Virus record (IMG/VR): IMGVR_UViG_3300009481_002868 | Coordinates: 1 to 45,715 of that record | Length of the DNA stretch: 45,715 bases | Direction: 5' to 3' (one strand) | From: a virus | Shown: positions 62-45,715 of the stretch, piece after piece | Layout: each line of letters begins with the position of its first letter | Numbering within the stretch: position 1 is the first letter of the stretch | Translations under genes and position numbers: made by a program | The notes under the pieces: generated by a model | Told to the model about the DNA's origin: nothing | Seen by the model: the letters and a program-made list of their open reading frames with translations, nothing else | Database searches by the model: none

Positions 62-239
62 TAAAAGACGCCCCACTTCTGTTGCCGGGCAGGGGCCTCC
101 CCGAGTAACTACGCTGCTAGAGCATAATCCTCAGATGCAAAGTTATCGTTTGCAATTATAGTTTTCTTGCGGTTAAGGTCGCTTGCGCACCTGTCTCTCG
201 GCTTTCCTATTATCTACCAGTCGATCCTATTTCGGCCCC
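62..239 (-). ncRNA. ssrA: tmRNA coding piece (permuted, two-piece ssrA)
   Basis: This is the mRNA-like half of a trans-translation RNA that rescues stalled ribosomes. The 5' end GGGGCCG at 239-233 pairs with CGGCTCC of the acceptor piece (446-452), giving a 7-bp acceptor stem with G3.U70, the alanine identity pair. A tag frame at 153-109 follows. Downstream of the tag is a GC-rich stretch containing GGCAACAGAAG, which I recall as typical of the 3' part of alphaproteobacterial coding pieces; the 3' end near 62 is an estimate. In permuted ssrA genes the acceptor piece is transcribed first, then an intervening sequence, then the coding piece, and that order is seen here. No promoter of its own is visible; transcription probably comes from 1003-1031. 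Confidence 0.93.
109..153 (-). other. tmRNA proteolysis-tag reading frame
   Basis: The resume codon GCA at 153-151 opens a frame encoding ANDNFASEDYALAA followed by TAG at 111-109. The ANDN start and the ALAA end match bacterial SsrA tags that are recognised by ClpXP-type proteases and SspB-like adaptors. The ANDN start is typical of alphaproteobacteria, unlike the marine picocyanobacterial tags I recall. The preceding A-rich stretch is the usual context of a resume codon. Confidence 0.93.
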
Positions 240-240
240 A

Positions 241-429
241 TCATAAAGATACAGAATTTAAAGGTTTACATACATAATTGACAGTATCCCAATCACCATC
301 TGCGGGTATTTCAGAATATTCTACAAGCATTGTGTCACATTCTGTTTTTGTTTTAAACCATTGTATGTCTTGATCAACACAAACTGATCCTGTGCAAACG
401 GTTAGTAATATATGCCAAATAATTTCCAT
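241..429 (-). CDS. Small secreted two-cysteine protein encoded inside the tmRNA intervening sequence
   Basis: This 62-residue protein has a hydrophobic N-terminus (residues 3-17) followed by WF..KTEC and a C-terminal Cys. It resembles the products of 14763-14948 and 41397-41636, which share a hydrophobic N-terminus, an aromatic-F-x-EC motif and a later Cys. AAGGAT lies just upstream of the ATG, so it looks genuinely translated. The gene lies wholly between the CCA end of the tmRNA acceptor piece (442) and G1 of the coding piece (239). The TGA stop (243-241) is one base short of G1. Function is unknown; an exported or periplasmic location is inferred from the hydrophobic start. Confidence 0.75.
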   Translation of the reverse strand: MEIIWHILLTVCTGSVCVDQDIQWFKTKTECDTMLVEYSEIPADGDWDTVNYVCKPLNSVSL

Positions 430-441
430 TTTATATCCTTA

Positions 442-508
442 TGGTGGAGCCGTCGGGTACTGCCCCCGAGTCCTGTGCAGTTTTCGGTCTGCGTCATAAA
501 GACGCTGT
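442..508 (-). ncRNA. ssrA: tmRNA acceptor piece
   Basis: This is the tRNA-like 3' half of the permuted tmRNA. Read on the minus strand it has a hairpin GCGTC-tttat-GACGC, then AGACCGAAAACTGCACAGGA, then a T-arm-like stem-loop TCGGG-GGCAGTA-CCCGA (469-453), then acceptor strand CGGCTCC, discriminator A and an encoded CCA (444-442). All seven acceptor-stem positions pair with the coding piece. The 7-base T-loop lacks the canonical TTCGA, which I recall is normal for two-piece tmRNAs. It starts immediately after the stop codon of the gene at 511-720, so it is probably cut from that transcript. Confidence 0.92.
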
Positions 509-510
509 AA

Positions 511-720
511 TCAATTACTGTATTCACTGTAATTACTTTGTAGAGAAGCTAATTTATCTTCAGCAGTTGCTAATTTAGATAATTCATGATTTACTGCTTC
601 TACAAGATCAGGATGTTCTCCAATTCCTGCAGGATTTTCTATGTAAACTTGAATATTTGCTTTTGCTTTTGAAATTTCAGCTTCATATTGTAGTCTTAAG
701 GCTTGAAATATCATTTCCAT
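511..720 (-). CDS. Small coiled-coil phage protein, conserved hypothetical
   Basis: This 69-residue protein is rich in Ala, Glu and Lys and has an IGEHPDL motif at about residues 33-39. I recall closely similar small proteins (EAKANI...NPxGIGEHPD...) in T4-like cyanophages and pelagiphages, always without known function. The sequence predicts two helices around the GIGEHP turn. It lies directly upstream of the tmRNA acceptor piece and downstream of 730-978, in the transcript from 1003-1031. The stop codon is within a few bases of the RNA, so processing of the RNA may trim this message. Confidence 0.8.
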   Translation of the reverse strand: MEMIFQALRLQYEAEISKAKANIQVYIENPAGIGEHPDLVEAVNHELSKLATAEDKLASLQSNYSEYSN

Positions 721-14763: not shown

Positions 14764-14948
14764 TGACTGAAATACTATTAATATTATGGTTTAGTGGATT
14801 CAATATGACTATTAGTAACGACATGTATAAGTTTTCTTCATTACAAGAATGTAATGAGAAAAAAATAATTATTGCAAAAGATTATGGAGCAAACAGCGCT
14901 ACTTGCTTTAAAGGAGACATCCTTGAAGATAGGTTAGAAAACACATGA
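14763..14948 (+). CDS. Small secreted two-cysteine protein
   Basis: A 61-residue protein with a hydrophobic start (residues 4-14), then YKFSSLQEC and a second Cys in ATCFKG. The same layout occurs in the tmRNA-nested gene (241-429) and at 41397-41636, so three members of one small family seem to be scattered through the window. Start and stop overlap both neighbours (TAATG, ATGA). Function unknown; export is inferred. Confidence 0.65.
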   Translation: MTEILLILWFSGFNMTISNDMYKFSSLQECNEKKIIIAKDYGANSATCFKGDILEDRLENT

Positions 14949-15613
14949 TTGATTATTCAAAAACTAAAAACATTGAAGCAGAAACCCTAAAAACAGGCAG
15001 AACCTACTTTACCCCTGACGGAAATTTTCCTAGTATTACTACTTTATTAGGTAAAACTTCTGAAAATCAAGTATGGCTACAAAAGTGGAGAGAAAAAGTA
15101 GGAGAAGAGGAAGCCGACAGAATATCTAAAGAGGCAACAGATAGAGGAACTTTAGTTCATGAGTATGCTGAAAAATATTTTAACGGTGAAGATATTAAAC
15201 CAGATTTAATGAAAGAAAAGCCTGATGTCAGAGATATGACATATAATTTAATAAAAGCAGGAGAAAAAGGGATAGAAGAAGTATGGGCGCAAGAAATTGC
15301 TCTTTGGAGTCCTTCATTAAAATACGCTGGAAGAGTAGACTTAGTAGGTTTGTGGAAAGGTATCCCTACAATTGTTGACTTTAAAACCTCTAAAAAGAAG
15401 AAAAACGTAAAACAGATTAAAGATTATTATGTTCAGTGTGCTGCCTATGCTTATGCGCACAACGAATTGTTTGATACAAATATTAAACAAATTGTTATTT
15501 TAATAACTGTCCAAGACTCAGGACCCCAGATATTTACGGGCAATGCTTTAAATTATATTCCAGACTTAAAATATAGAGTGAACAAGTATAATGAATTATT
15601 ACGAAGAGGTTAA
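14945..15613 (+). CDS. PD-(D/E)XK exonuclease
   Basis: A 222-residue nuclease with RGTLVHEYAEKYF (helix with His and Glu), YAGRVDLVG (first Asp), IVDFKTSKK (the D/E-x-K motif) and YYVQCAAYAYA (Q-x3-Y), in the order of Cas4/RecB/MGME1-like exonucleases. Such genes are frequent in marine myoviruses and probably act in recombination or host-DNA degradation. It lacks the four iron-sulfur cysteines of Cas4. Confidence 0.88.
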   Translation: MIDYSKTKNIEAETLKTGRTYFTPDGNFPSITTLLGKTSENQVWLQKWREKVGEEEADRISKEATDRGTLVHEYAEKYFNGEDIKPDLMKEKPDVRDMTYNLIKAGEKGIEEVWAQEIALWSPSLKYAGRVDLVGLWKGIPTIVDFKTSKKKKNVKQIKDYYVQCAAYAYAHNELFDTNIKQIVILITVQDSGPQIFTGNALNYIPDLKYRVNKYNELLRRG

Positions 15614-18435: not shown

Positions 18436-18921
18436 ATGGGATTGAAGTTAGCAGGAGTTATGATGATTATTATGGGGGTTGTAGGAGGCATTTTTTACTG
18501 GTATTACACAGATACACAGGAAAAAATGGCTATCATGCATGAGAATAACGCAAAATTAGAAACAGCAATGCAAACTCAAAAACAAGCTATTGACCAGTAT
18601 CAAAAAGATATAAAATTAGTAACAGCTTCAAAACTAGAAGTAGAAGAACAATTTGCAAAATCTAGAGAGTCAGTACAAGAGTTAAAAAATAAATTCAATA
18701 AAGTTAGTAAATTACTAGGAGCAAGAGATTTAGGTAAAATGGGTGCCGCCAAACCTAGGTCTATTCAACGTATTGTTAATAAAGGCAGTAAAGACGTATT
18801 AAGATGTTTTGAAATTGCTAGTGGTAAACCGCTGACGGAGAAGGAAAAAGATGCGATCAAACCAAGTCAAATCAATAAACAGTGTCCTAATTTGGCCAAC
18901 CCTAATCATATTAAGCCTTAG
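18436..18921 (+). CDS. i-spanin-like inner-membrane protein
   Basis: A 161-residue type II membrane protein: one N-terminal segment (about residues 5-24) followed by a long coiled coil (27-95) and a C-terminal part with two Cys. This is the i-spanin (Rz) layout. It follows lysozyme and overlaps by 71 bases the lipoprotein gene at 18851, the usual nested Rz/Rz1 arrangement. It would span the periplasm and fuse membranes at lysis. Confidence 0.75.
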   Translation: MGLKLAGVMMIIMGVVGGIFYWYYTDTQEKMAIMHENNAKLETAMQTQKQAIDQYQKDIKLVTASKLEVEEQFAKSRESVQELKNKFNKVSKLLGARDLGKMGAAKPRSIQRIVNKGSKDVLRCFEIASGKPLTEKEKDAIKPSQINKQCPNLANPNHIKP

Positions 18922-19366
18922 CTTATCGGCTTGTGGAACTCCGGTTAAAAAAATAGAAGTATTAAGTACTCCATTAGAAAGAGTACCTCTTAATCTTCCT
19001 AAAGTAGATGAACTTAATTTAGATACGGTAGATTGGATACTTGTTACTCCAGAAAATGCTGAAAAAGTGTGGAAAGATTTAGAGAAAAAGAAATTTGATA
19101 TTGTGTTATTCGGACTCACAGATCGTGGATATGAGGACCTTAGTGTAAATATAGCAAAAATTAAACAAATGGTTATACAACAAAAATCAGTAATTGCAGC
19201 GTATAAGAAATATTACGAAAGTCAGACTGAAGAAATAGAGAAACAACAAAAAGCAGTTGAAGAAAAGAAAAAAGAAGCTGCACTTGAAAATGAAAAAGCT
19301 GAAGAAGAAAATAAAAAAGGTTTTCTTAATAAATTAAACTCAAATGTGAAAGGTATATTCAAATAG
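18851..19366 (+). CDS. o-spanin-like outer-membrane lipoprotein
   Basis: A 171-residue protein with a signal segment and lipobox SLSACG (Cys at about 28), Pro/Leu-rich mature start and a C-terminal coiled coil rich in Lys and Glu (about 110-155). It overlaps the i-spanin gene in another frame. The start at 18851 lies inside the i-spanin gene. It is larger than lambda Rz1, so it might instead be another envelope lipoprotein. Confidence 0.68.
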   Translation: MRSNQVKSINSVLIWPTLIILSLSLSACGTPVKKIEVLSTPLERVPLNLPKVDELNLDTVDWILVTPENAEKVWKDLEKKKFDIVLFGLTDRGYEDLSVNIAKIKQMVIQQKSVIAAYKKYYESQTEEIEKQQKAVEEKKKEAALENEKAEEENKKGFLNKLNSNVKGIFK

Positions 19367-27251: not shown

Positions 27252-28390
27252 TTGACAAAAGTACTTTTTGTACTAGACCTTGGAATGAACTACACATCGA
27301 GGAGGACGGGCACGTTACTCCTTGTTGTGTCATGCCTTCTACTATGGGATTCAGACCTAAAAAAGGTATTAAAAATTATCTAAACTCTCCAGAGTTAGCA
27401 AAACTTAAAGAAGATTTAAAAAACGGAATTAAATCAGAACACTGTAAAACTTGTTGGATGCAAGAAGGGTATGGTACTCACTCTCACAGGAAAACTACTC
27501 TAGCAAAAGGAGAAAAGTTAGATAAGATTGAAGCGATACATGTTAGAAGCACTAATGTGTGTAACTTTAAATGTAGAATTTGTAGCCCAGATTTGAGTTC
27601 TGCTTGGCAAGCAGAAAATAAAAAACACAATTTGTATAAACAAAAGTATTTTCAAAGCTCTATTACAGATATTCACGATAATCTATTGGACGACGACGAG
27701 TATTGTAAAGAATTATTTACTTTGTTAAAAAGTGTTAGGCAAATTAATATGTCTGGTGGAGAGCCTCTAACCTGTAACACAACATTAAAGTTTTTTGAGA
27801 AGTGTAGAGAATATAATATTACTAATACAAATATTGCTATCAACTCAAATCTCTCGAAATTACACTATAAAAATCATTATTGGTTAGATGAGTTTAAAGA
27901 TTTTAGAGTTACTATAACAGTTAGTTGGGATGGTTTTGGAAAACAAATGGAATATCATCGCACTGGGTTGAATTGGAAAAAAAGTTTACAGAATTTCAAA
28001 GAGTCTTTACCTTTCATTTATAATGTAAATTGTGTTTTATCAATTTATAGCATATATTCTATACCTAAGTTAATCCACTTTTGTGATAGAATACAGAAAG
28101 ACTTAGAGATTAATTTGATAGCCGGAAAAGGGGGCATAATGTGTGTACAAACACTACCCGAACATGAAAAGGATAAAATTAAAAAACATTATGAGAATAG
28201 TTTTTCTGAAAGACCCGATTTAAAAGAGATTGCTTGGGACAAAGTAATCAATCCTTTATATAAAGAAAGCGGAAAAGAATATTTAAACACTGCGTTCAAA
28301 CAGTATAATCAAATTTTAGACAAACAAAGAGGGACAAGCTTTGTAGAAACTTTTCCAGAATTAAAAAACTGGTGGGAGTCAATTGCATGA
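27248..28390 (+). CDS. Radical SAM enzyme with SPASM/twitch-like cysteines
   Basis: A 380-residue protein with the radical SAM cluster motif CNFKCRIC (C105, C109, C112) and SGGEPL as the SAM-binding GGE. An N-terminal module has CTRPW..LHIEEDGHVTPCC and CKTCW (C8, C26, C27, C66, C69), which looks like a SPASM or twitch auxiliary cluster region placed before the core. Such enzymes modify peptides or sugars. It is coupled by ATGA overlaps to both neighbours, the fusion gene and an SGNH gene. Confidence 0.85.
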   Translation: MIDKSTFCTRPWNELHIEEDGHVTPCCVMPSTMGFRPKKGIKNYLNSPELAKLKEDLKNGIKSEHCKTCWMQEGYGTHSHRKTTLAKGEKLDKIEAIHVRSTNVCNFKCRICSPDLSSAWQAENKKHNLYKQKYFQSSITDIHDNLLDDDEYCKELFTLLKSVRQINMSGGEPLTCNTTLKFFEKCREYNITNTNIAINSNLSKLHYKNHYWLDEFKDFRVTITVSWDGFGKQMEYHRTGLNWKKSLQNFKESLPFIYNVNCVLSIYSIYSIPKLIHFCDRIQKDLEINLIAGKGGIMCVQTLPEHEKDKIKKHYENSFSERPDLKEIAWDKVINPLYKESGKEYLNTAFKQYNQILDKQRGTSFVETFPELKNWWESIA

Positions 28391-29136
28391 GAACACACTT
28401 ATTTGCCAACGGTTGCTCTCACACAGCGGGCGGAGAAATAGAAGAAAAATATCAAAACTGTTGTCACGAAAAAGCGTGGCCTAAACACTTAGCCGACTCT
28501 TTAAATATGGATTGGACAAATTTTGCAATATCTGGAGGCTCGGCAGAAAGAGTTGTTCGTACAACTATGTACTGGTTTGGTAAAAACCCAAAAAGAATGA
28601 AAGATACTTTTGCAATTATTGGTTGGCCTCCTCCTTGGAGATCAGAAATCCGTCTTGATCGCAGATGTAACTATAACCAACCAGAACACTTATTTGAATC
28701 AGATAATCATTGGTATCAGTTAAATGTAGGAATTGAAGAGACAATTAAAGAACACTCTGAAAGTTTAAAAATTAAAGATTTTTATAAACTTTATAAGCTA
28801 AAATTTGCTCTTGAAACAAAAGAAGAAGTAATCACTAGGTTTTATCTTAGTCTTATTTCTCTACAGAGTTATTTTAAAACATTTAAAATTCCTTACATAA
28901 TGTTTAATACTGCTTCAGATTTCTACATTAACGACAACTCTTTACATTATTTTAGACAGGTGGACCAAAAACCGTTTATAGATATAAAAATGCTGGAGTG
29001 GCTTCATGGTAAATACGAAATAGCAGAACACTCAGTTTGCGAACATTATGGAGAAGACGCTCACATGGGGTGGGCAAGATTTTTAGCCAGTTATCTACGA
29101 GGGGGAAGTTTTGATGATAAGAAATTTTACTCTTGA
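28387..29136 (+). CDS. SGNH-like phage protein (GCSHT block I)
   Basis: A 249-residue protein beginning FANGCSHTAGGE, a phage variant of the SGNH block I, then ISGGSAERVV (block II) and, near the end, EDAHMGWARF (Asp-x-His). I have seen this type as DUF6071-like in marine phages. The start at 28387 (ATGA overlap) is preferred to 28372. It lies behind the radical SAM gene and may release or add an acyl group. Confidence 0.7.
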   Translation: MRTHLFANGCSHTAGGEIEEKYQNCCHEKAWPKHLADSLNMDWTNFAISGGSAERVVRTTMYWFGKNPKRMKDTFAIIGWPPPWRSEIRLDRRCNYNQPEHLFESDNHWYQLNVGIEETIKEHSESLKIKDFYKLYKLKFALETKEEVITRFYLSLISLQSYFKTFKIPYIMFNTASDFYINDNSLHYFRQVDQKPFIDIKMLEWLHGKYEIAEHSVCEHYGEDAHMGWARFLASYLRGGSFDDKKFYS

Positions 29137-29162
29137 CAAGGTGGATTATTTTAAGCTATAAT
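29133..29162 (+). promoter_or_regulatory. Consensus sigma70-type promoter for the structured leader RNA
   Basis: Perfect TTGACA (29133-29138) and perfect TATAAT (29157-29162), spacer 18. It is among the strongest promoters in the window. The start would be near 29169, about 227 bases before the next start codon. The -35 overlaps the SGNH stop codon. Confidence 0.82.
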
Positions 29163-29168
29163 ATATAT

Positions 29169-29381
29169 GTTGATCAACCGGAGATACTTTGTATCCGTGA
29201 CCATACAAAGTCGGGCCGTCGCCCGCTTTACAACAGTAAAGTTAAGAAAAAGTTTCTATGCTTAGTAGTAAATGATTAGGGCATGTATACACAAATGTAC
29301 AAGTGTATTGTTGTCAAAATCAGACACATTTATATAAGAAACTATTCAATAGGAGAGGAACTTCGGTTCCTCTCCCGTTTT
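29169..29381 (+). ncRNA. Structured leader RNA, possible riboswitch/attenuator or sRNA
   Basis: Between a consensus promoter and a UUCG terminator lie several exact stems: ACTTTGTAT/ATACAAAGT (29186-29194 with 29203-29211), CGGGC/GCCCG (29212-29225), CTTTAC/GTAAAG (29226-29241), and ATACAC/GTGTAT (29287-29308). An alternative pairing CGGA(ga)TAC/GTATCCG would exclude the first stem. The last hairpin is followed by TTTT and then the ribosome-binding site of 29396. This layout suits transcription attenuation of the next two genes. No known riboswitch class recognised. Confidence 0.6.
29352..29381 (+). terminator. UUCG-tetraloop terminator upstream of 29396
   Basis: GGAGAGGAAC (29352-29361), loop TTCG and the exact complement GTTCCTCTCC (29366-29375), then CG and TTTT. 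The U-run is short, which fits a conditional terminator. AAGGAGAG for the next gene lies just after it. Confidence 0.7.
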
Positions 29382-29395
29382 CAAGGAGAGCGAAT

Positions 29396-29680
29396 ATGCC
29401 TATAAAAAAGACCATTATTGGAGAAGGCACAGATTGGCCATTTGTAAAACAAAAATCTTGGTTTGCAGGTGGAGATTTCAACGACACTAATTTATCAAAA
29501 AGCGAAGTAACAGCTAACACAGAGACAGGTTTCACTGTGGTTAAATATTTTGCAGATGCCGATGCCTATGCTGCGTGGAATACTACTAATTCTACCTTTC
29601 TACAAGCAATCAATACAATGCGAACTGCAAATAGTATTACTACTACTTTTTCATCAGAGGACATAGATACGATTCCCTAA
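29396..29680 (+). CDS. Hypothetical protein (94 aa) under the structured leader
   Basis: Begins MPIKKTIIGEGTDWPFVKQKSW and has a beta-like middle with a Thr/Asn-rich C-terminus. AAGGAGAG precedes the ATG; the frame extends upstream into the terminator hairpin but has no reason to start there. The stop overlaps the oxygenase start. It may be the substrate or partner of that oxygenase. No family recognised. Confidence 0.65.
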   Translation: MPIKKTIIGEGTDWPFVKQKSWFAGGDFNDTNLSKSEVTANTETGFTVVKYFADADAYAAWNTTNSTFLQAINTMRTANSITTTFSSEDIDTIP

Positions 29681-30348
29681 TGCGCAACTGGTTTAACTGG
29701 CAATTAAAAAATCAAGTAGAAAATCCTGACTGGCCTACTGAACAGCTACCTGTAGCCAACCTAAGTGAAAGCTTAGGCTGGTTTAATGCTTTTATCCTAG
29801 ACGGATATCAAAACAAAACTTTAGAATATTATTATGAAAATGTATTTTATAGGCAAGATTGGTGTGATAAAGCTAGCTCCACTACAGACGGTGCAGTAGA
29901 TGCAGATACTCTTAGCAGCTGGATGCACGATCCCGAATTATCAACTCTGATGGACAATCAAGGAGTTGAATATATCTTAAACTTTCCAGAAGAAGTTACA
30001 AACAAGCTAAACAAACAACTATCATCAAGCTTAAATCTGATAGAAGACTCTATCAACATACGAATTCACATACAAAGACCGGGACAATTCTTTGCTATAC
30101 ATTTTGATAGAAATAAATATGGAAACTATGATACAAGCCGACCAGCTCACGATTTGAAGAGTCATATCTTTTTAGTCTTTTTGAATGACCAATCACTAGG
30201 ACAAGTGTTTCAGCTAGGCCACTCGCAAATTCGTTGGCAAGAAGGTGATGTATTTACTTGGGAACAGACAGACATGCCGCACGGAAGTGCGAACTTTGGA
30301 TTAGAGAACAGATATGCAATGATTCTCACAGGATTTGCAAAAGCATAA
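29680..30348 (+). CDS. 2OG-Fe(II) oxygenase, aspartyl hydroxylase-like
   Basis: A 222-residue protein. Iron ligands H141 and D143 (AIHFD) and H201 (MPHGSAN), with R211 for 2-oxoglutarate, lie in a beta-helix pattern (RIHIQRPGQFFAIH, HIFLVFLND, GDVFTW). The spacing resembles aspartyl/asparaginyl beta-hydroxylases. It is controlled together with the 94-residue gene by the leader RNA at 29169-29381. Confidence 0.82.
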   Translation: MRNWFNWQLKNQVENPDWPTEQLPVANLSESLGWFNAFILDGYQNKTLEYYYENVFYRQDWCDKASSTTDGAVDADTLSSWMHDPELSTLMDNQGVEYILNFPEEVTNKLNKQLSSSLNLIEDSINIRIHIQRPGQFFAIHFDRNKYGNYDTSRPAHDLKSHIFLVFLNDQSLGQVFQLGHSQIRWQEGDVFTWEQTDMPHGSANFGLENRYAMILTGFAKA

Positions 30349-30365
30349 ATTTGAAAAATTTAACA

Positions 30366-30394
30366 TTGCGCGAAGTCGAAATTTGTGCTACTAT
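30366..30394 (+). promoter_or_regulatory. Probable promoter of the GGA-loop RNA
   Basis: TTGCGC (30366-30371), a 17-base spacer and TACTAT (30389-30394), a weaker match (4 of 6 in each box). The start would be near 30401. No protein frame follows until 30642. Confidence 0.45.
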
Positions 30395-30400
30395 TATTGC

Positions 30401-30595
30401 ATAGCTTGTGAACAACGTTAACACGGAGTGTGAACAGCTGGGGAACATGGGGAAACACTTTGAACATTTTCATTAGGCGCTGTCTCGGAGAGACACAACG
30501 TTTATTATTTTTTAGTGGGCCTCTTTGTGCCTATGTTTTGGGAGCAACCAACAGTTCAACGAAGTTGAATTTCTGTTGACACGCTCCCTTTTTTT
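30401..30595 (+). ncRNA. Candidate small RNA with GGA-loop hairpins
   Basis: This gene-free stretch has a promoter-like start and a strong terminator (30540-30595). Inside are two hairpins with identical GGA triloops: GTTAACAC-GGA-GTGTGAAC (30417-30435, one mismatch) and TGTCTC-GGA-GAGACA (30481-30495). The sequence GAACA occurs four times between 30409 and 30466. Hairpins presenting GGA are the binding sites of CsrA/RsmA proteins, so an RsmY/CsrB-like decoy is possible. No protein frame of useful length is present. Confidence 0.5.
30540..30595 (+). terminator. Nested intrinsic terminator
   Basis: Three stacked stems: GGGAGC/GCTCCC, CAACAG/CTGTTG and TTCAAC/GTTGAA closing a GAA loop, followed by seven T residues (30589-30595). 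It ends the candidate RNA and separates it from the symporter gene. Confidence 0.88.
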
Positions 30596-30641
30596 ATGTT
30601 AAACTTGGCATATAATTCGTGTAAAAGAAAGGTTATAAAAT

Positions 30642-32009
30642 ATGTATGAATTAATGTTAATCTTTATTTACACTATTGTTTTATGGGCATTTGCTTATAA
30701 ATACACTAGTCTAAGTAAAGATACAAATACATTCCTAGTTTCAAATAGAAGCGTGGGAATACTTGTAGGGGGTATGAGTGTCGGAATGACGTGGACATGG
30801 GCACCCGCCCTTTTTATCAGCTCTACTAAAGCATATACTCAAGGAATTCCAGGACTATTCTGGTTTTGTTTTTGTAATGGACTTTGTTTAGTCCTATTTG
30901 GGTATTTTGCACAGAAGCTGAGAGAAAGATGTCCAGAAGGATTTACTCTTAGTGGCTATATTAAAGACGCGGTAAGTAGCCGTGTAAGTAAATTTTATTG
31001 GGGAGAACTAGGGTATCTTACTATTAGTGCTTTTACCATTCAACTTCTTGCTGGGGGCTGGATTATGAACGCCATGACCGGCATAGATTTTACACTAATT
31101 ACTATTATAATGGCAGCAATTGCTCTTAGTTATAGTTTGTTTAGCGGAATTAGAGGATCAATCATAACAGACGCAGTACAGTATATATTTACTGCCGTCA
31201 CTTGTTTAATCTTAGTCCCTTGGGCTATCTCTGAAGGAGGTGGTTGGGAAACTGTCGCTAAAGGAGCAACAGGAACGCTGTTTGACCTAGATGTGTTTTT
31301 GACTTTTGGTATTGCTGCTAGTATCGGCTTTCTTGCTGGTCCTTTTGGTGATCAAATGTTTTATCAAAGAGCATTTAGTATTAAAAAGAATAAAATCTTC
31401 AAAGCGTTTACTCTTGGTTGGGTTTTATTCTTAGTTATTCCTATTACTATGGGATCGTTAGGATTTGTCGCTACAGGGTTGGGAATGGAAGTTCCTGCAA
31501 AACTGGTAAACTATGAAGTTATTAAAACACTTCTTCCTGCATGGGCGGTATACCCGTTCTTATTTGCTATTATGTGTGGACTCCTATCTACTTGTGATTC
31601 CGCTTGTTGTGCGGTTAGTGGTTTAGCTTCTAAAGATTGGTTTCCAACATCAGAAGTTACTGGTGCTAGATTAGGGATGGTTGCTCTTGCTACTATTTCA
31701 GTTGTACTAGCAAACATGCCCGGAGTAACAATCGTTGGATTATTCTTATTCCACTCTTGTTTGAGAGCAAGCACTCTCTTGCCAACTATTCAAGCAATTT
31801 CATATAAAGACATTCACGAACCTTCAATGTTCTGGGGTCTTATCTTATCTGTTGCTATCGGTCTTCCATTCTTCTGTTATGGTATGTGGTTTGGCGGAGG
31901 CGGTTTGTTTACCGCTGCTGGAGCAATTTTAACTATAGCAATTGGGGGCGGTATGACTTATGTAGGCAGGAAATACATAGGTAACAAAGTTGTCTCTCAA
32001 GCGTCTTGA
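30642..32009 (+). CDS. Sodium:solute symporter (SSS) family transporter
   Basis: A 455-residue membrane protein with about 12-13 hydrophobic segments. The start (SLSKDTNTFLVSNRSVGILVGGMSVGMTWTW) is the SSS core entry, where small residues line the Na+ site, and GPFGDQMFYQRAF, the SSS signature-like region (about 230-242), follows. Related cell proteins import urea, proline or organic acids with sodium. The substrate is unknown. Very few phages encode full transporters. AAAGG precedes the ATG; TATAAT at 30611-30616 may be a -10 box without a clear -35. Confidence 0.88.
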   Translation: MYELMLIFIYTIVLWAFAYKYTSLSKDTNTFLVSNRSVGILVGGMSVGMTWTWAPALFISSTKAYTQGIPGLFWFCFCNGLCLVLFGYFAQKLRERCPEGFTLSGYIKDAVSSRVSKFYWGELGYLTISAFTIQLLAGGWIMNAMTGIDFTLITIIMAAIALSYSLFSGIRGSIITDAVQYIFTAVTCLILVPWAISEGGGWETVAKGATGTLFDLDVFLTFGIAASIGFLAGPFGDQMFYQRAFSIKKNKIFKAFTLGWVLFLVIPITMGSLGFVATGLGMEVPAKLVNYEVIKTLLPAWAVYPFLFAIMCGLLSTCDSACCAVSGLASKDWFPTSEVTGARLGMVALATISVVLANMPGVTIVGLFLFHSCLRASTLLPTIQAISYKDIHEPSMFWGLILSVAIGLPFFCYGMWFGGGGLFTAAGAILTIAIGGGMTYVGRKYIGNKVVSQAS

Positions 32010-32658: not shown

Positions 32659-33467
32659 ATAAAGATATCATATGTGCCCCCATGACTAGGGTTAGTGATG
32701 CTGATTTAGCTATAGCAATAGATAAAGCAGGAGGAGTAGGAAGTATTTCTTCTGCAGGATTTAGTAACTCTTGGCTAAAAAAAGAATTATCTAAGTTTAC
32801 CAAAGAAAGAAAGCACAATAATGTAGTAGTGTCTCTTTCAGATAATATACGAGAACCTGAGTGCCAAAACATAATTAGGATATTTAAACCAAAATATGTA
32901 GTATTATTAGATGAAGAAACTAAATATGATAAACATATTAGAAGTTCACTACTTAACTTAGGGGTTAGAGTAATCATTAGAATAAGTACTCTTAGCGGAG
33001 TAGAAACTTTTCCCCCACCTGATTACTACACAATAAAAGGTATTGACAGTGCAGGACGTTTTAATAAAGACTTGCCTATTTTAGATTTATTAAAATTATT
33101 CAAAGATAGATACCCAGATTTTCCTGTTATCTGTACTGGGGGGTTGTATACAAAAGAAGCAATACAGGAGTGTTTTAATCACGGAGCTTCGGCTATAGAA
33201 GTAGGAACTCCTTTTGCTATTAGTGAAGAGTCTAATATTGATATAAAAACTAAGATGTCTATAATAACTAAACCTTCTGTTAAGATAATGGATAACTCAG
33301 GGTATGAAAGAAGAGTTCATAGTCCTAATTCCCAATACAATCTTGGAGAAGGAGTCTCTGGAAACTTAGATGCCGGACACGTCTATATAGGAAGCAAAAT
33401 TAATGAGCTACCTAAAAAAATAAGATTTGTACAAGAAATAATGAATGATTTGTTGCCTATAGGTTAA
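32640..33467 (+). CDS. Nitronate monooxygenase/2-nitropropane dioxygenase-like flavoprotein
   Basis: A 275-residue TIM-barrel with the family's FMN-binding parts: DIICAPMTRVSDADLAIAIDKAGGVGSIS at the start and VICTGGLYTKEAIQECFNHGASAIEVGTPF near 170-200. Members oxidise nitronates or act as trans-enoyl reductases (FabK). It is shorter than the usual 310-350 residues, so peripheral elements are missing. Overlaps the SGNH gene by 19 bases. Confidence 0.75.
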   Translation: MERGFLNKDIICAPMTRVSDADLAIAIDKAGGVGSISSAGFSNSWLKKELSKFTKERKHNNVVVSLSDNIREPECQNIIRIFKPKYVVLLDEETKYDKHIRSSLLNLGVRVIIRISTLSGVETFPPPDYYTIKGIDSAGRFNKDLPILDLLKLFKDRYPDFPVICTGGLYTKEAIQECFNHGASAIEVGTPFAISEESNIDIKTKMSIITKPSVKIMDNSGYERRVHSPNSQYNLGEGVSGNLDAGHVYIGSKINELPKKIRFVQEIMNDLLPIG

Positions 33468-33481
33468 ATTTATTATATAAT
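33453..33481 (+). promoter_or_regulatory. Sigma70-type promoter before 33508
   Basis: TTGCCT (33453-33458), a 17-base spacer and perfect TATAAT (33476-33481). It overlaps the 3' end of the flavoprotein gene and would start transcription near 33488, with AAAAGGA ahead of the ATG. Confidence 0.7.
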
Positions 33482-33507
33482 AAATATAATTAGAAAAGGA
33501 ATTAAAC

Positions 33508-33774
33508 ATGACAGAAAACAAAGAGTCGGGTGGTTACAATCCGACAGTAATTCCATTTCAAAAGGACGAAATAACTAGTAATGTCATTAGTGTAGCATTT
33601 GACTCCTCTAGTAATTTTATTGTTTTGGAGGGAAATTTATCAGACGGGTGGGAAGCTTATGGAATTTTTTCTACTTTTGAAGATGCAGCAGCTTATGCTG
33701 ATACACTACACGAAATGGCGTGGATAATGGAGTTAAAAAGTGCAGAAACACCTAAAAAACCTAACCTTGCTTAA
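33508..33774 (+). CDS. Hypothetical protein (88 aa)
   Basis: A beta-rich start (VIPFQKDEITSNVISVAFDSSSNFIVLEG) then a helix (FEDAAAYADTLHEMAWIMELK). The sequence suggests a small alpha/beta domain. It is the first gene of a new unit. No family recognised. Confidence 0.65.
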   Translation: MTENKESGGYNPTVIPFQKDEITSNVISVAFDSSSNFIVLEGNLSDGWEAYGIFSTFEDAAAYADTLHEMAWIMELKSAETPKKPNLA

Positions 33775-34006
33775 CAAAGATGTAAATTTTTATGTTCCTT
33801 CTGCAGCAGCAGATAGTATAGTTGAGTTAGGAAGGGTTATTAAAAATAACCAAGAGGACTTAGTTGTTCGCAGTTACGTGGACGGAGAAAAGTACAATAT
33901 CTATGTTTCAGATATTGTTGGCTTTAAAAATAAAGGAATAAACAAAATATGGCAAATTCAAATTTCAATCCGAAAAAACATATCAACGCTGTTCAAGAAG
34001 AAATAA
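33740..34006 (+). CDS. Hypothetical protein (88 aa)
   Basis: Starts with GTG at 33740 inside the previous gene (35-base overlap). Contains VNFYVPSAAADSIVELGRVI and a likely beta hairpin (VRSYVDGEKYNIYVSDIVGFKNK), a small SH3-like pattern. The last 58 bases overlap the next gene in another frame. No family recognised. Confidence 0.5.
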   Translation: MQKHLKNLTLLNKDVNFYVPSAAADSIVELGRVIKNNQEDLVVRSYVDGEKYNIYVSDIVGFKNKGINKIWQIQISIRKNISTLFKKK

Positions 34007-34248
34007 TTGAAATTCTAGAAGAATATGGTAACACTGAAAAAGAGCGCATGGCAGTAGCTTCAGCTTTTTTAGGAGTGGTTATCCCTATGTATGAAGATTC
34101 TTTAGGAACTGAGAGGACTGCTGTTATGATGTACAAAGTAGCAGATGAACTAGCTGTGAGAGTTCCTAGCAAAGTTACTATACCTACTACAAATTTTTCT
34201 TCTAGAAAATTTAGACAAAAATCTAGTAACAAAAAAAGAAAAACATGA
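33949..34248 (+). CDS. Hypothetical protein (99 aa)
   Basis: Helical N-terminal two thirds (HINAVQEEIIEILEEYGNTEKERMAVASAFLGVVIPMY) and a basic, Lys-rich tail. The ATG is inside the previous gene. The stop overlaps the WbqC-like start (ATGA). No family recognised. Confidence 0.6.
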   Translation: MANSNFNPKKHINAVQEEIIEILEEYGNTEKERMAVASAFLGVVIPMYEDSLGTERTAVMMYKVADELAVRVPSKVTIPTTNFSSRKFRQKSSNKKRKT

Positions 34249-34919
34249 AGATAGGAATTATGCAACCCTATGTATTTCCATACCTAGGGTATTTTCAGTT
34301 GTACAATGCAGTAGACTTGTTTATATCTTTAGAGGATGTAAATTATATTAAAAAAGGTTGGATTAATCGTAATAAAATTATGGTGAACGACAAGCCTAGT
34401 TACATTACTTTTCCAGTTAAAAATGCGAGTCAAAACAGACTTATTAATCAGCACTATATAGATTGGAGAGGTAATTGGCCTGAGAAAATGTTAAAAACAA
34501 TTAAACATTCTTATGGCAGAGAAACTTATTTTGATGAAGTATATCCAGTAATAGAAGATCTTTTTAGGAGACAGGGAGAAGATTGTATAGCCGCTTTTGC
34601 TATGGTAGCTCTAACACACTTAGGTGATTTATTAGGAATTAAAACAGAAACTCAATGGTCTTTGCGATATGCAAAAGATGGACTAAAAGGACAAGACCGT
34701 TTGATAGATATTTGTAAACAATCAGGGGCAACTACTTATGTAAATGCTATTGGGGGTATGGAAATGTATGACCAAGAATCTTTTGGTGATATAGATTTAC
34801 GATTTATACAAAGATTAGACGAAGAAAATAATTTATCAATTATTGATATTTTAATGAGAAGAGGTTGGGATGAAACCTCTAAATTATTAAATCAATATGA
34901 GTTAATAGAAGGAAAGTGA
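34245..34919 (+). CDS. WbqC-like protein
   Basis: A 224-residue protein beginning MKIGIMQPYVFPYLGYFQL, the signature of the WbqC family, followed by LEDVNYIKKGWINRNKI and later GATTYVNAIGG. WbqC members occur in O-antigen and surface-polysaccharide clusters and are thought to modify amino sugars, though their chemistry is poorly known. It fits the glycan theme of the window. Confidence 0.9.
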   Translation: MKIGIMQPYVFPYLGYFQLYNAVDLFISLEDVNYIKKGWINRNKIMVNDKPSYITFPVKNASQNRLINQHYIDWRGNWPEKMLKTIKHSYGRETYFDEVYPVIEDLFRRQGEDCIAAFAMVALTHLGDLLGIKTETQWSLRYAKDGLKGQDRLIDICKQSGATTYVNAIGGMEMYDQESFGDIDLRFIQRLDEENNLSIIDILMRRGWDETSKLLNQYELIEGK

Positions 34920-34921
34920 GA

Positions 34922-35599
34922 ATGTACGGAAAAGAATATGAAAAAGCAAAAGAAGCCTTAGAAGGAAAACGAGATGACGTATATCCAATAAGAGAAGACG
35001 TACCCGCTGATCTTTGGGGTAAACCTGTAGCTAAAGATCCAGACAAATGGGCGGTGGATGCTTCAGTAAACAAAAATGAAGCATTATCAAAAGTAGGAGA
35101 TTATGAGGATAGTAATCCTCGTTTTCACATGGCTACAGGTGCTGGGTATGATGATTTTCATCCAAACCTAGCTAAAGAAAAAGACGAGGCTATTGATTTG
35201 AGTTATGAAAAAGCAACTTCTAGATACCCAGAAGAACTAACTGTGCTAGGAAAATATGAAGAACGTGAAATGCAAGCAAATAAGCAAAGTGATAATGTTG
35301 ATTTAAAATACACAGGATATGTTCCTGACTATAAATTTAACGAAGCAGATATTCTAGATGAAATACAAGACTATATTGATGCTACATATGAAGGACACTA
35401 TAACAGAAATAAGTTTCAAGCAACAGAGTTTATTTTAGATTCAGGGCATGGGACAGGTTTTTGTGTAGGAAATATAATGAAGTATGCACAGAGATATGGT
35501 AAAAAAGGAACCCATAGTGACGCAAGAAAAGACTTGCTTAAAATAGTTCATTATGCTATAATAGCTTTACATAATCATGATGAAGAAAATGGATACTAG
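34922..35599 (+). CDS. DUF3310-containing protein
   Basis: A 225-residue protein. The C-terminal 75 residues (EATYEGHYN..KFQ..., then CVGNIMKYAQRYGKKG, ARKDLLKIVHYAI) match DUF3310, the domain of T7 gp1.7-like nucleotide kinases; many phages have it. The N-terminal 130 residues are charged and low in recognisable motifs. Starts at the ATG at 34922 behind AAGGAAAG. It overlaps the serine hydroxymethyltransferase gene by 23 bases, linking it to nucleotide supply. Confidence 0.75.
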   Translation: MYGKEYEKAKEALEGKRDDVYPIREDVPADLWGKPVAKDPDKWAVDASVNKNEALSKVGDYEDSNPRFHMATGAGYDDFHPNLAKEKDEAIDLSYEKATSRYPEELTVLGKYEEREMQANKQSDNVDLKYTGYVPDYKFNEADILDEIQDYIDATYEGHYNRNKFQATEFILDSGHGTGFCVGNIMKYAQRYGKKGTHSDARKDLLKIVHYAIIALHNHDEENGY

Positions 35600-36731
35600 A
35601 ATACAAAATATTTTAGGTCGAGAGATAGACCGACAAGAAAATACTATTGAACTTATTGCAAGTGAGAACTTCGCAAGCGAAGCAGTAATGCAGCTTGCAG
35701 GTAGTGTATTTACAAACAAGTATGCAGAAGGATATCCTGGTAAAAGATACTACAATGGTTGTGAGCATATGGACTCTATAGAGCAGCTTGCTATAGACCA
35801 GTTAAAAGAGATATATGGTTGTGAGTTTGCAAATGTACAGCCTCATTGTGGTGCAAATGCTAATACAGCAATATACCTCGCGTTTCTTAAGCCCGGAGAT
35901 AAAATACTTGGAATGGACCTTGCTAGTGGTGGACACTTAAGCCACGGCGCTCCTGTAAATATATCAGGAAAAGTATACGAAGCACACCATTATGGTGTCG
36001 ATGAAAAAGGTTGGTTAGATTATTCTGCAATAATGGCACAGGCAAAAGAAGTAAAACCTAAGATGATCATAGCAGGTGCTAGTGCATATCCTAGAGCAAT
36101 AGATTTTAATATGTTTAGAGATATAGCAGACTCAGTAGGAGCCTACTTATTAGTTGATATGGCACACTACTCAGGACTTATTGCTGGTAATGCTTACCCA
36201 AGTCCTTTGTATTATGCAGACTTTGTAACAAGCACAACACACAAAACATTAAGAGGCCCAAGAGGTGGAATAATTCTATGGAATAATAAAGACTATACCA
36301 AAAAGATTAATAGCGCAATATTCCCCGGCACTCAAGGAGGTCCTTTGATGAATATTATTGCCGCAAAAGCTCAGGCTTTTATTGAGGCAAATACTAATGA
36401 ATTTAAAGAATACTCACAACAGATTGTTTTTAATGCAAAAGCAATGGCAAAAGTATTTAAAGAAAGAGACTTTAAATTACTAACAGACGGAACTGATAGT
36501 CATATATTGTTATTGGATTTAAGTGATAGCGAGTGGTCAGGTAAAGAAGCCGCAAACTTACTAGAGGCAAACGGTATTACGGTAAACAAAAACGGAGTGC
36601 CAAACGACCCAAGATCATTTGTAGAAACAAGTGGTATTAGAATAGGCACTGCTGCAGAAACAAGCAGGGGATTATTAGAAGAAGACTTTAGAGAGATTGC
36701 TAATAAAATATGTAATCTATTAAAAGGATGA
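35577..36731 (+). CDS. glyA: Serine hydroxymethyltransferase
   Basis: A 384-residue PLP enzyme that moves a one-carbon unit from serine to tetrahydrofolate, giving glycine and 5,10-methylene-THF. Conserved blocks are IELIASENFASE near the start, NKYAEGYPGKRYYNGCE, VDMAHYSGLIAG and STTHKTLRGPRGG with the Schiff-base lysine K223, then R near SGIRIGT. Cellular GlyA is about 415 residues, so this is slightly short. It would feed thymidylate synthesis during phage replication. Confidence 0.95.
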   Translation: MMKKMDTRIQNILGREIDRQENTIELIASENFASEAVMQLAGSVFTNKYAEGYPGKRYYNGCEHMDSIEQLAIDQLKEIYGCEFANVQPHCGANANTAIYLAFLKPGDKILGMDLASGGHLSHGAPVNISGKVYEAHHYGVDEKGWLDYSAIMAQAKEVKPKMIIAGASAYPRAIDFNMFRDIADSVGAYLLVDMAHYSGLIAGNAYPSPLYYADFVTSTTHKTLRGPRGGIILWNNKDYTKKINSAIFPGTQGGPLMNIIAAKAQAFIEANTNEFKEYSQQIVFNAKAMAKVFKERDFKLLTDGTDSHILLLDLSDSEWSGKEAANLLEANGITVNKNGVPNDPRSFVETSGIRIGTAAETSRGLLEEDFREIANKICNLLKG

Positions 36732-44913: not shown

Positions 44914-45227
44914 TGAGTACTTATGTAGTATCCGAATCAAATGTTAAAGACACTTGGCAAATCGCTAAATTTAGTGATTATAAAGATGCTGATTCGGTTT
45001 TTAATGTTAGCAAAAGAGGACGAACGTATCATTGTGATTGTCCAGGGTTTTGGAGACAAAAAGATAAATCCGAACACAAGCATATTAGAATTGTAAAGTT
45101 TTGGAAAGAGGAGTTAGAACAACCTACGGGTATGGCTCTTTGGTTTGAAGACGAAGAGATTGAATACAATCAATTTATAAAGAGCAATTCTTTTTTGGAA
45201 GAATTTTTTCTCTTGCCGAATGGTTAA
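44913..45227 (+). CDS. SWIM-like zinc-binding protein (104 aa)
   Basis: The middle reads RTYHCDCPGFWRQ...KSEHKHIRIVKFW, the SWIM pattern C-x-C-x(n)-C-x-H with the third Cys replaced by His (C41, C43, H55, H57), so zinc binding is still possible. SWIM domains bind DNA or proteins. The protein ends in a Leu/Phe-rich tail. It is the last gene before a large structured RNA. Confidence 0.65.
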   Translation: MSTYVVSESNVKDTWQIAKFSDYKDADSVFNVSKRGRTYHCDCPGFWRQKDKSEHKHIRIVKFWKEELEQPTGMALWFEDEEIEYNQFIKSNSFLEEFFLLPNG

Positions 45228-45241
45228 ATTTTCGGTATTAT
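45213..45241 (+). promoter_or_regulatory. Sigma70-type promoter of the pseudoknot RNA
   Basis: TTGCCG (45213-45218), a 17-base spacer and TATTAT (45236-45241). The -35 box overlaps the end of the SWIM-like gene. The start near 45248 coincides with the first base-paired stem of the RNA. Confidence 0.65.
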
Positions 45242-45248
45242 ATAAAAA

Positions 45249-45520
45249 TGTTGAGCGATAAAGTTCAGCACAACCAACAACTAAACACTTCTAGATGAGA
45301 TATTGAATCACTGCTTGGAAGTGTTTATGAAGACGGAAGACGAGTCAGTCGACCTCTTGCTCCGACCCAGTGAGGTCGGCAACGAGTATCCTAGTCGGAG
45401 AGCACTCGGTCAATACTCGTCTTCCACTCTGTCGAACCTCCGAGACATTAAAACAGGAGTCCTATTAGAAAGATTATACTTTCGTGAATAGGCGTTGGGT
45501 CATTTATCACGTTAGATGAC
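45249..45520 (+). ncRNA. Large structured RNA with an H-type pseudoknot
   Basis: A chain of stems fills this gene-free stretch: 45249-45256/45263-45270; 45282-45291/45318-45327 (10 bp); 45335-45345/45415-45425 (11 bp, perfect); within it 45348-45356/45372-45380 and 45360-45366/45394-45400, which interleave as a pseudoknot; 45426-45432/45453-45460; 45461-45472/45479-45492; 45499-45503/45516-45520. The stems abut, and GC content rises well above the surroundings. A reading frame at 45303-45491 is judged a by-product. The 3' end is not defined; no terminator is visible before 45610. No known class recognised. Confidence 0.72.
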
Positions 45521-45619
45521 AGGTTAGAGTTACCCCCAGGGATTCATTTGAAATGATAGAGCACACCGATGTTCCTGATTTCATTGAACATAATCCTTCC
45601 TAAAAAACTCATTTTATTC
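45521..45619. other. Gene-free stretch after the pseudoknot RNA
   Basis: No open frame with a ribosome-binding site and no terminator. It contains a short TCATTT/AAATGA inverted repeat near 45544 and ends in AT-rich sequence. It may be the 3' part of the RNA at 45249-45520 or simple spacer. Confidence 0.4.
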
Positions 45620-45648
45620 TTGCTAAGAAGTTATTTTTTAGCTATAAT
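45620..45648 (+). promoter_or_regulatory. Sigma70-type promoter at the window edge
   Basis: TTGCTA (45620-45625), a 17-base spacer and perfect TATAAT (45643-45648). A transcript would begin near 45655, and its first 60 bases lie in the window, ending in the hairpin-forming CGTCG...CGACG. What it encodes is beyond the edge. Confidence 0.7.
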
Positions 45649-45715
45649 GAATATAGAAATTGAGGAAAGAAACAAACAGAGAAACAAAAGCCTCAGAACG
45701 TCGTATATCGCGACG

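Follow-up and report, generated by a model that had tools for sequence, protein, structure and literature searches.

A structured, promoter-driven RNA unit ahead of a 94-residue protein gene in a fragment assigned to a T4-like marine phage

T4-like phages of marine bacteria are abundant, and few of their noncoding RNAs have been described. Phage T4 encodes RNA C and RNA D, small stable RNAs of unassigned role, in its tRNA cluster. Marine T4-like cyanophages carry the structured noncoding RNAs CfrI, PhotoRC-II and wcaG (PMC9964418), and in the marine myophage Melnitz a unit of glutamine riboswitch and two-piece tmRNA, the latter already known for marine phages, stands behind an early promoter (PMC9004378). 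T4-type phages also possess PeSL (promoter-early stem-loop) cassettes (Arbiol 2010; Comeau 2014), which, as they are summarised in PMC4503421 and PMC3950731, place an early-type promoter and a terminator-like stem in one intergenic gap at sites of gene gain and loss. The unit analysed here shares with PeSL, so far as those summaries describe them, the promoter and stem in one gap and its setting in a T4-like phage, but some 185 nt of folded RNA separate its promoter from its stem. It is not repeated within the record, itself only part of a genome, and a related genome holds further promoters of similar kind. Like the Melnitz unit it is a structured RNA that follows an early promoter, and the two marine T4-like phages are of related kinds, whereas its leader has no Rfam riboswitch match and the tmRNA of the record lies elsewhere (66-551, minus strand). 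The cyanophage RNAs are likewise structured and noncoding, yet our RNA has no Rfam match to them and its gene context differs. RNA C and RNA D are, by description, also small phage RNAs, although their place is in a tRNA cluster.

The DNA analysed, hereafter the window, is the whole of IMG/VR virus record IMGVR_UViG_3300009481_002868, a single fragment of 45,715 bases. Its gene content points to a T4-like marine phage, since the phage Hsp20 is most like that of pelagimyophage Mosig and of other T4-like marine phages, and the tmRNA is of the permuted, two-piece, alphaproteobacterial type that is also present in a relative (G015). This tmRNA was the sole Rfam match in the window at both gathering and relaxed thresholds. 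At the locus of interest a DUF6071-like gene (28372-29136) is followed on the plus strand by the promoter, the folded stretch of about 185 nt, a stem capped by UUCG and the gene for a 94-residue protein (29396-29680). Searches of Pfam and PHROG with this protein gave no match, and its structure prediction (pLDDT 46) was too low to use. Then come an oxygenase-like gene with weak similarity to the 2OG-Fe(II) family (29680-30348, plus strand), a second noncoding gap (30349-30641) and a sodium:solute symporter-like gene (30642-32009; PF00474, PHROG 20720). In those contigs of other T4-like marine phages that were read, the symporter-like gene adjoins the terminase gene.

The promoter (29133-29162, plus strand) is of the sigma70 type and matches the consensus at 12 of 12 positions, with TTGACA at 29133-29138, an 18-nt spacer and TATAAT at 29157-29162; the -35 element overlaps the stop codon of the DUF6071-like gene. 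A window-wide scan found no other perfect site. The preliminary description was right about the promoter, as it was in placing four exact hairpins after the promoter. By our own estimate from base composition about 0.1 such promoters are expected per window, so that a perfect match is not very rare in DNA this rich in AT. Transcription is predicted to start near 29169. A second good promoter for the 94-residue gene was looked for and not found.

Minimum free energy folding gives a structured RNA from 29169 to 29350 on the plus strand. Exact repeat search identified H1, a hairpin of 9 bp with loop CCGUGACC (29186-29194/29203-29211), and H3, of 6 bp (CUUUAC-AACA-GUAAAG; 29226-29231/29236-29241); between them, stem listing and folding gave H2, of 5 bp (CGGGC-CGUC-GCCCG; 29212-29216/29221-29225). 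The UUCG stem is the fourth exact hairpin. Folding adds a long irregular hairpin, P4, that the preliminary description lacked (29251-29343, with AGUUUCU at 29251-29257 and AGAAACU at 29337-29343 forming its base), and the minimum free energy fold can be closed at its ends by pairing of the 5' GUUGA with UCAAU (29346-29350). The stretch 29169-29399 has a stability z-score of -5.7, none of 200 shuffles being as stable; the score is -4.5 for the stretch up to the last base of the T run, -3.2 after removal of the terminal stem and -2.25 for H1 to H3 by themselves. The leader fold as a whole therefore exceeds chance, and H1 to H3 alone are suggestive. No strong coding potential was found in 29169-29351. 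Of the two hairpins for which mutually exclusive alternatives had been proposed, only H1 has an overlapping one, and this is weaker by 1.6 kcal/mol (-5.8 against -7.4 kcal/mol).

The terminal stem-loop (29352-29381, plus strand) consists of 10 bp capped by UUCG (arms 29352-29361/29366-29375) followed by CGTTTT, and occurs once in the window. Its position ahead of the ribosome-binding site is as first described, while its status as a terminator is borderline by score: our own implementation of the d'Aubenton-Carafa formula gives -6.4, and -5.8 for what we take to be the sequence of E. coli rrnB T1. In stability the stem equals those of known terminators, and the T run is short and begins two bases 3' of it (CGTTTTC), because of which a large part of the RNA may be no more than mRNA leader. 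We regard the element as a probable intrinsic terminator of borderline quality. Opening the stem would cost 11-17.5 kcal/mol in a thermodynamic model that leaves co-transcriptional folding aside, and its best competitor is a long-range pairing of the RNA 5' end with the 3' arm. The Shine-Dalgarno sequence AAGGAGAG (29383-29390, plus strand) lies partly inside a hairpin of -5.5 kcal/mol.

With the window gene at 14945-15613 as query, close relatives were found, and one of them, IMGVR_UViG_3300021957_004744 (G014), is the sole syntenic relative recovered. Its gene order is a radical-SAM gene, a DUF6071-like gene, a gap, a homologue of the 94-residue protein (53% identity) and the counterpart of the 30349-30641 gap; no oxygenase homologue was found in the record, including between the 94-residue gene and the next noncoding element. 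The first gap holds a promoter, TTGCCC-17-TATCAT, a leader of different sequence and similar stability (z -3.8), and, directly before the ribosome-binding site, a stem of 9-10 bp at the matching position, where the T tract is weak too. Since G014 lacks the oxygenase and retains the leader, the leader is, on gene order, tied to the 94-residue gene and not to the oxygenase.

Conservation between the two leaders is uneven. Terminal stem and Shine-Dalgarno sequence are clearly alike (0/1000 shuffles align as well), the long-hairpin region shows a weak likeness (11/1000), and the whole leaders, aligned locally, have no significant similarity (124/1000), because of which a figure of 70.5% from a global, gap-tolerant alignment was set aside. 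A consensus fold of the long hairpin was equalled by one of 300 column shuffles; nearly all its pairs are unchanged, with one altered on both sides and two on one side. The long hairpin is thus probably common to both phages, to judge from these alignments, and the 5' region with H1 to H3 shows no recognisable conservation. Covariance models of H1 to H3 and of the long hairpin scored above noise on the window itself only, and missed the syntenic leader. As a lead only, in both phages YGUGAC occupies the loop of an AU-rich hairpin (H1 in the window), and the loop in G014, which carries CUGUGAC, is complementary to a GUCACAG downstream. The preliminary description had made its proposal depend on conservation of the hairpins upstream of homologous genes; in the one syntenic relative the layout persists, as probably does the long hairpin, and the other hairpins show no recognisable conservation.

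Wider searches recovered little. A BLASTN search of phage records with the leader returned chance-level pieces only, and DNA-pattern scans of IMG/VR gave no match and then four chance matches in unrelated contexts. Single-protein queries of IMG/VR with the oxygenase, the 94-residue protein and the upstream gene gave no matches; an alignment search with the 94-residue protein returned G014 alone from IMG/VR and nothing from GTDB genomes. An SSF transporter query yielded 13 contigs, and the leader is absent from those that were read.

The leader unit is thus a real, structured, promoter-driven RNA unit, and its best explanation, to which we give a probability of roughly 0.48, is a phage-encoded structured small RNA gene with read-through into the 94-residue gene. 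The preliminary description had offered a free-standing sRNA as an equal alternative to a riboswitch, and its interpretation is partly supported. Host sigma70 RNA polymerase would start at the promoter, whose sequence is evident; the RNA, of about 210 nt, is computed to fold into H1 to H3 and the long hairpin; transcription would mostly halt at the UUCG stem; and the released RNA might act in trans or on the mRNAs of the phage itself. Polymerase reading through would yield mRNA for the 94-residue protein and, in the window phage and not in G014, for the oxygenase. The unit has the attributes of a free-standing small RNA, namely its own promoter, no strong open reading frame, a stable fold and a borderline terminator, all packed into a compact genome; the syntenic site repeats the layout with a promoter of its own, and the terminal stem, being so costly to open, has little of the look of a switch. 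The lineage has further noncoding units behind sigma70 promoters, to a wider set of which this one may belong. Against a small RNA gene stand the short, displaced T run, the 5' part without recognisable conservation, the single syntenic relative, the lack of any other good promoter for the 94-residue gene among those found and, as for a cis-acting element, the position of the leader before that gene in both phages.

These last features suit a cis-acting leader that needs no ligand and no free RNA and affects mRNA stability, partial attenuation or translation of the 94-residue gene, the last because the Shine-Dalgarno sequence is partly paired within a weak hairpin that directly follows the UUCG stem. 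The T tract, weak in both phages, fits this too, and we consider such a leader a serious possibility, if one we would bet against; the other noncoding units of the lineage are not bound to one downstream gene, and the UUCG stem is as firm as those of established terminators. The same gap could instead be a boundary cassette of the PeSL type, in which promoter and stem alone matter, for transcription boundaries and module exchange, and the RNA between them has no function. Promoter and stem do share one gap between gene modules, and between the same two noncoding elements the window has the oxygenase and G014 does not, a gain or loss of that gene next to the unit; the window, however, holds a single UUCG stem and a single perfect promoter with no repeat, and in both phages the intervening RNA folds more stably than chance would give, which makes this reading distinctly unlikely.

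Least probable, indeed very improbable, is the other proposal of the preliminary description, a metabolite riboswitch or attenuator for the oxygenase with 2-oxoglutarate, iron or an amino acid as its ligand. A terminator-like stem does lie in a leader ahead of a gene, H1 has its weaker alternative, and glutamine riboswitches occur in marine phages (PMC9004378). The comparison with Rfam that it had called for, run on both leaders, matched no riboswitch family; the best candidate, preQ1-II, scored 16.9 bits where 47 is the cut-off. The aptamer is expected to be the best-conserved portion of a riboswitch, and here the models built on the window miss even the syntenic leader, the one relative available; no competitive antiterminator was found. 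An H1 alternative weaker by 1.6 kcal/mol and a stem costing 11-17.5 kcal/mol to open do not amount to an attenuator-like balance under the thermodynamic model. The ligands had been guessed from the oxygenase, and these guesses lose their basis because G014 keeps promoter, leader and 94-residue gene without it. A 2-oxoglutarate or iron riboswitch is not supported.

A stronger candidate for an RNA gene than the leader unit is the second gap (30349-30641, plus strand), which has a promoter-like TTGCGC-17-TACTAT with an extended -10-like element and, in the window, a strong terminator carrying 7 T. Positions 30354-30533 match G014 at 75% over about 180 nt (counterpart at L042 5626-5804), with long stretches invariant. 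The gene downstream differs between the phages, being the transporter in the window and an unrelated ORF in G014, as a free-standing RNA gene would predict. An exact pattern of the conserved core found no match in GTDB genomes; other contigs share the 16 bases 30388-30403, a chance match that falls inside their terminase gene.

G014 also has a 2.5-kb block without convincing ORFs (33041-35553; L042 18042-20000, L046), in which at least seven tandem promoters of a single style, with consensus ~ACTTTNTTCTTGCTAAGAAGTTANTTTTTAGCTATAATATATAAAG, stand 120-800 nt apart from the next unit or the end, these stretches too being free of convincing ORFs. The leader promoter is of the same style, sharing 18 of 19 bases with G014:33846-33864, and the right end of the window (45211-45715) is the start of a matching tandem block. 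The tested portion of the block has no match in Rfam or in phage records, and z-scores of its units are mixed (-0.8 to -4.4), two of six coding controls also reaching about -2.3. A speculative and rather unlikely reading joins the leader unit, the 30349-30641 element and this block, with its seven or more promoter-RNA units, into a large set of structured RNAs that are driven by sigma70 and act in trans in an uncultured marine T4-like lineage. The literature searched contains no description of a phage noncoding-RNA programme of this kind. If the RNAs are real and independently made, they would give a phage of marine bacteria an early RNA programme of considerable size; if the unit is a mere leader, it would still mark a conserved transcription unit for the 94-residue protein.

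Two further observations concern the remainder of the window. ARAGORN called a tRNA-Pyl at 18919-19014 on the minus strand, which is probably false: it runs antisense to a coding region, and no Rfam tRNA model matches it. At 35577-36731 there is a serine hydroxymethyltransferase-like phage gene, the homologue of which in G014 sits in a different gene order.
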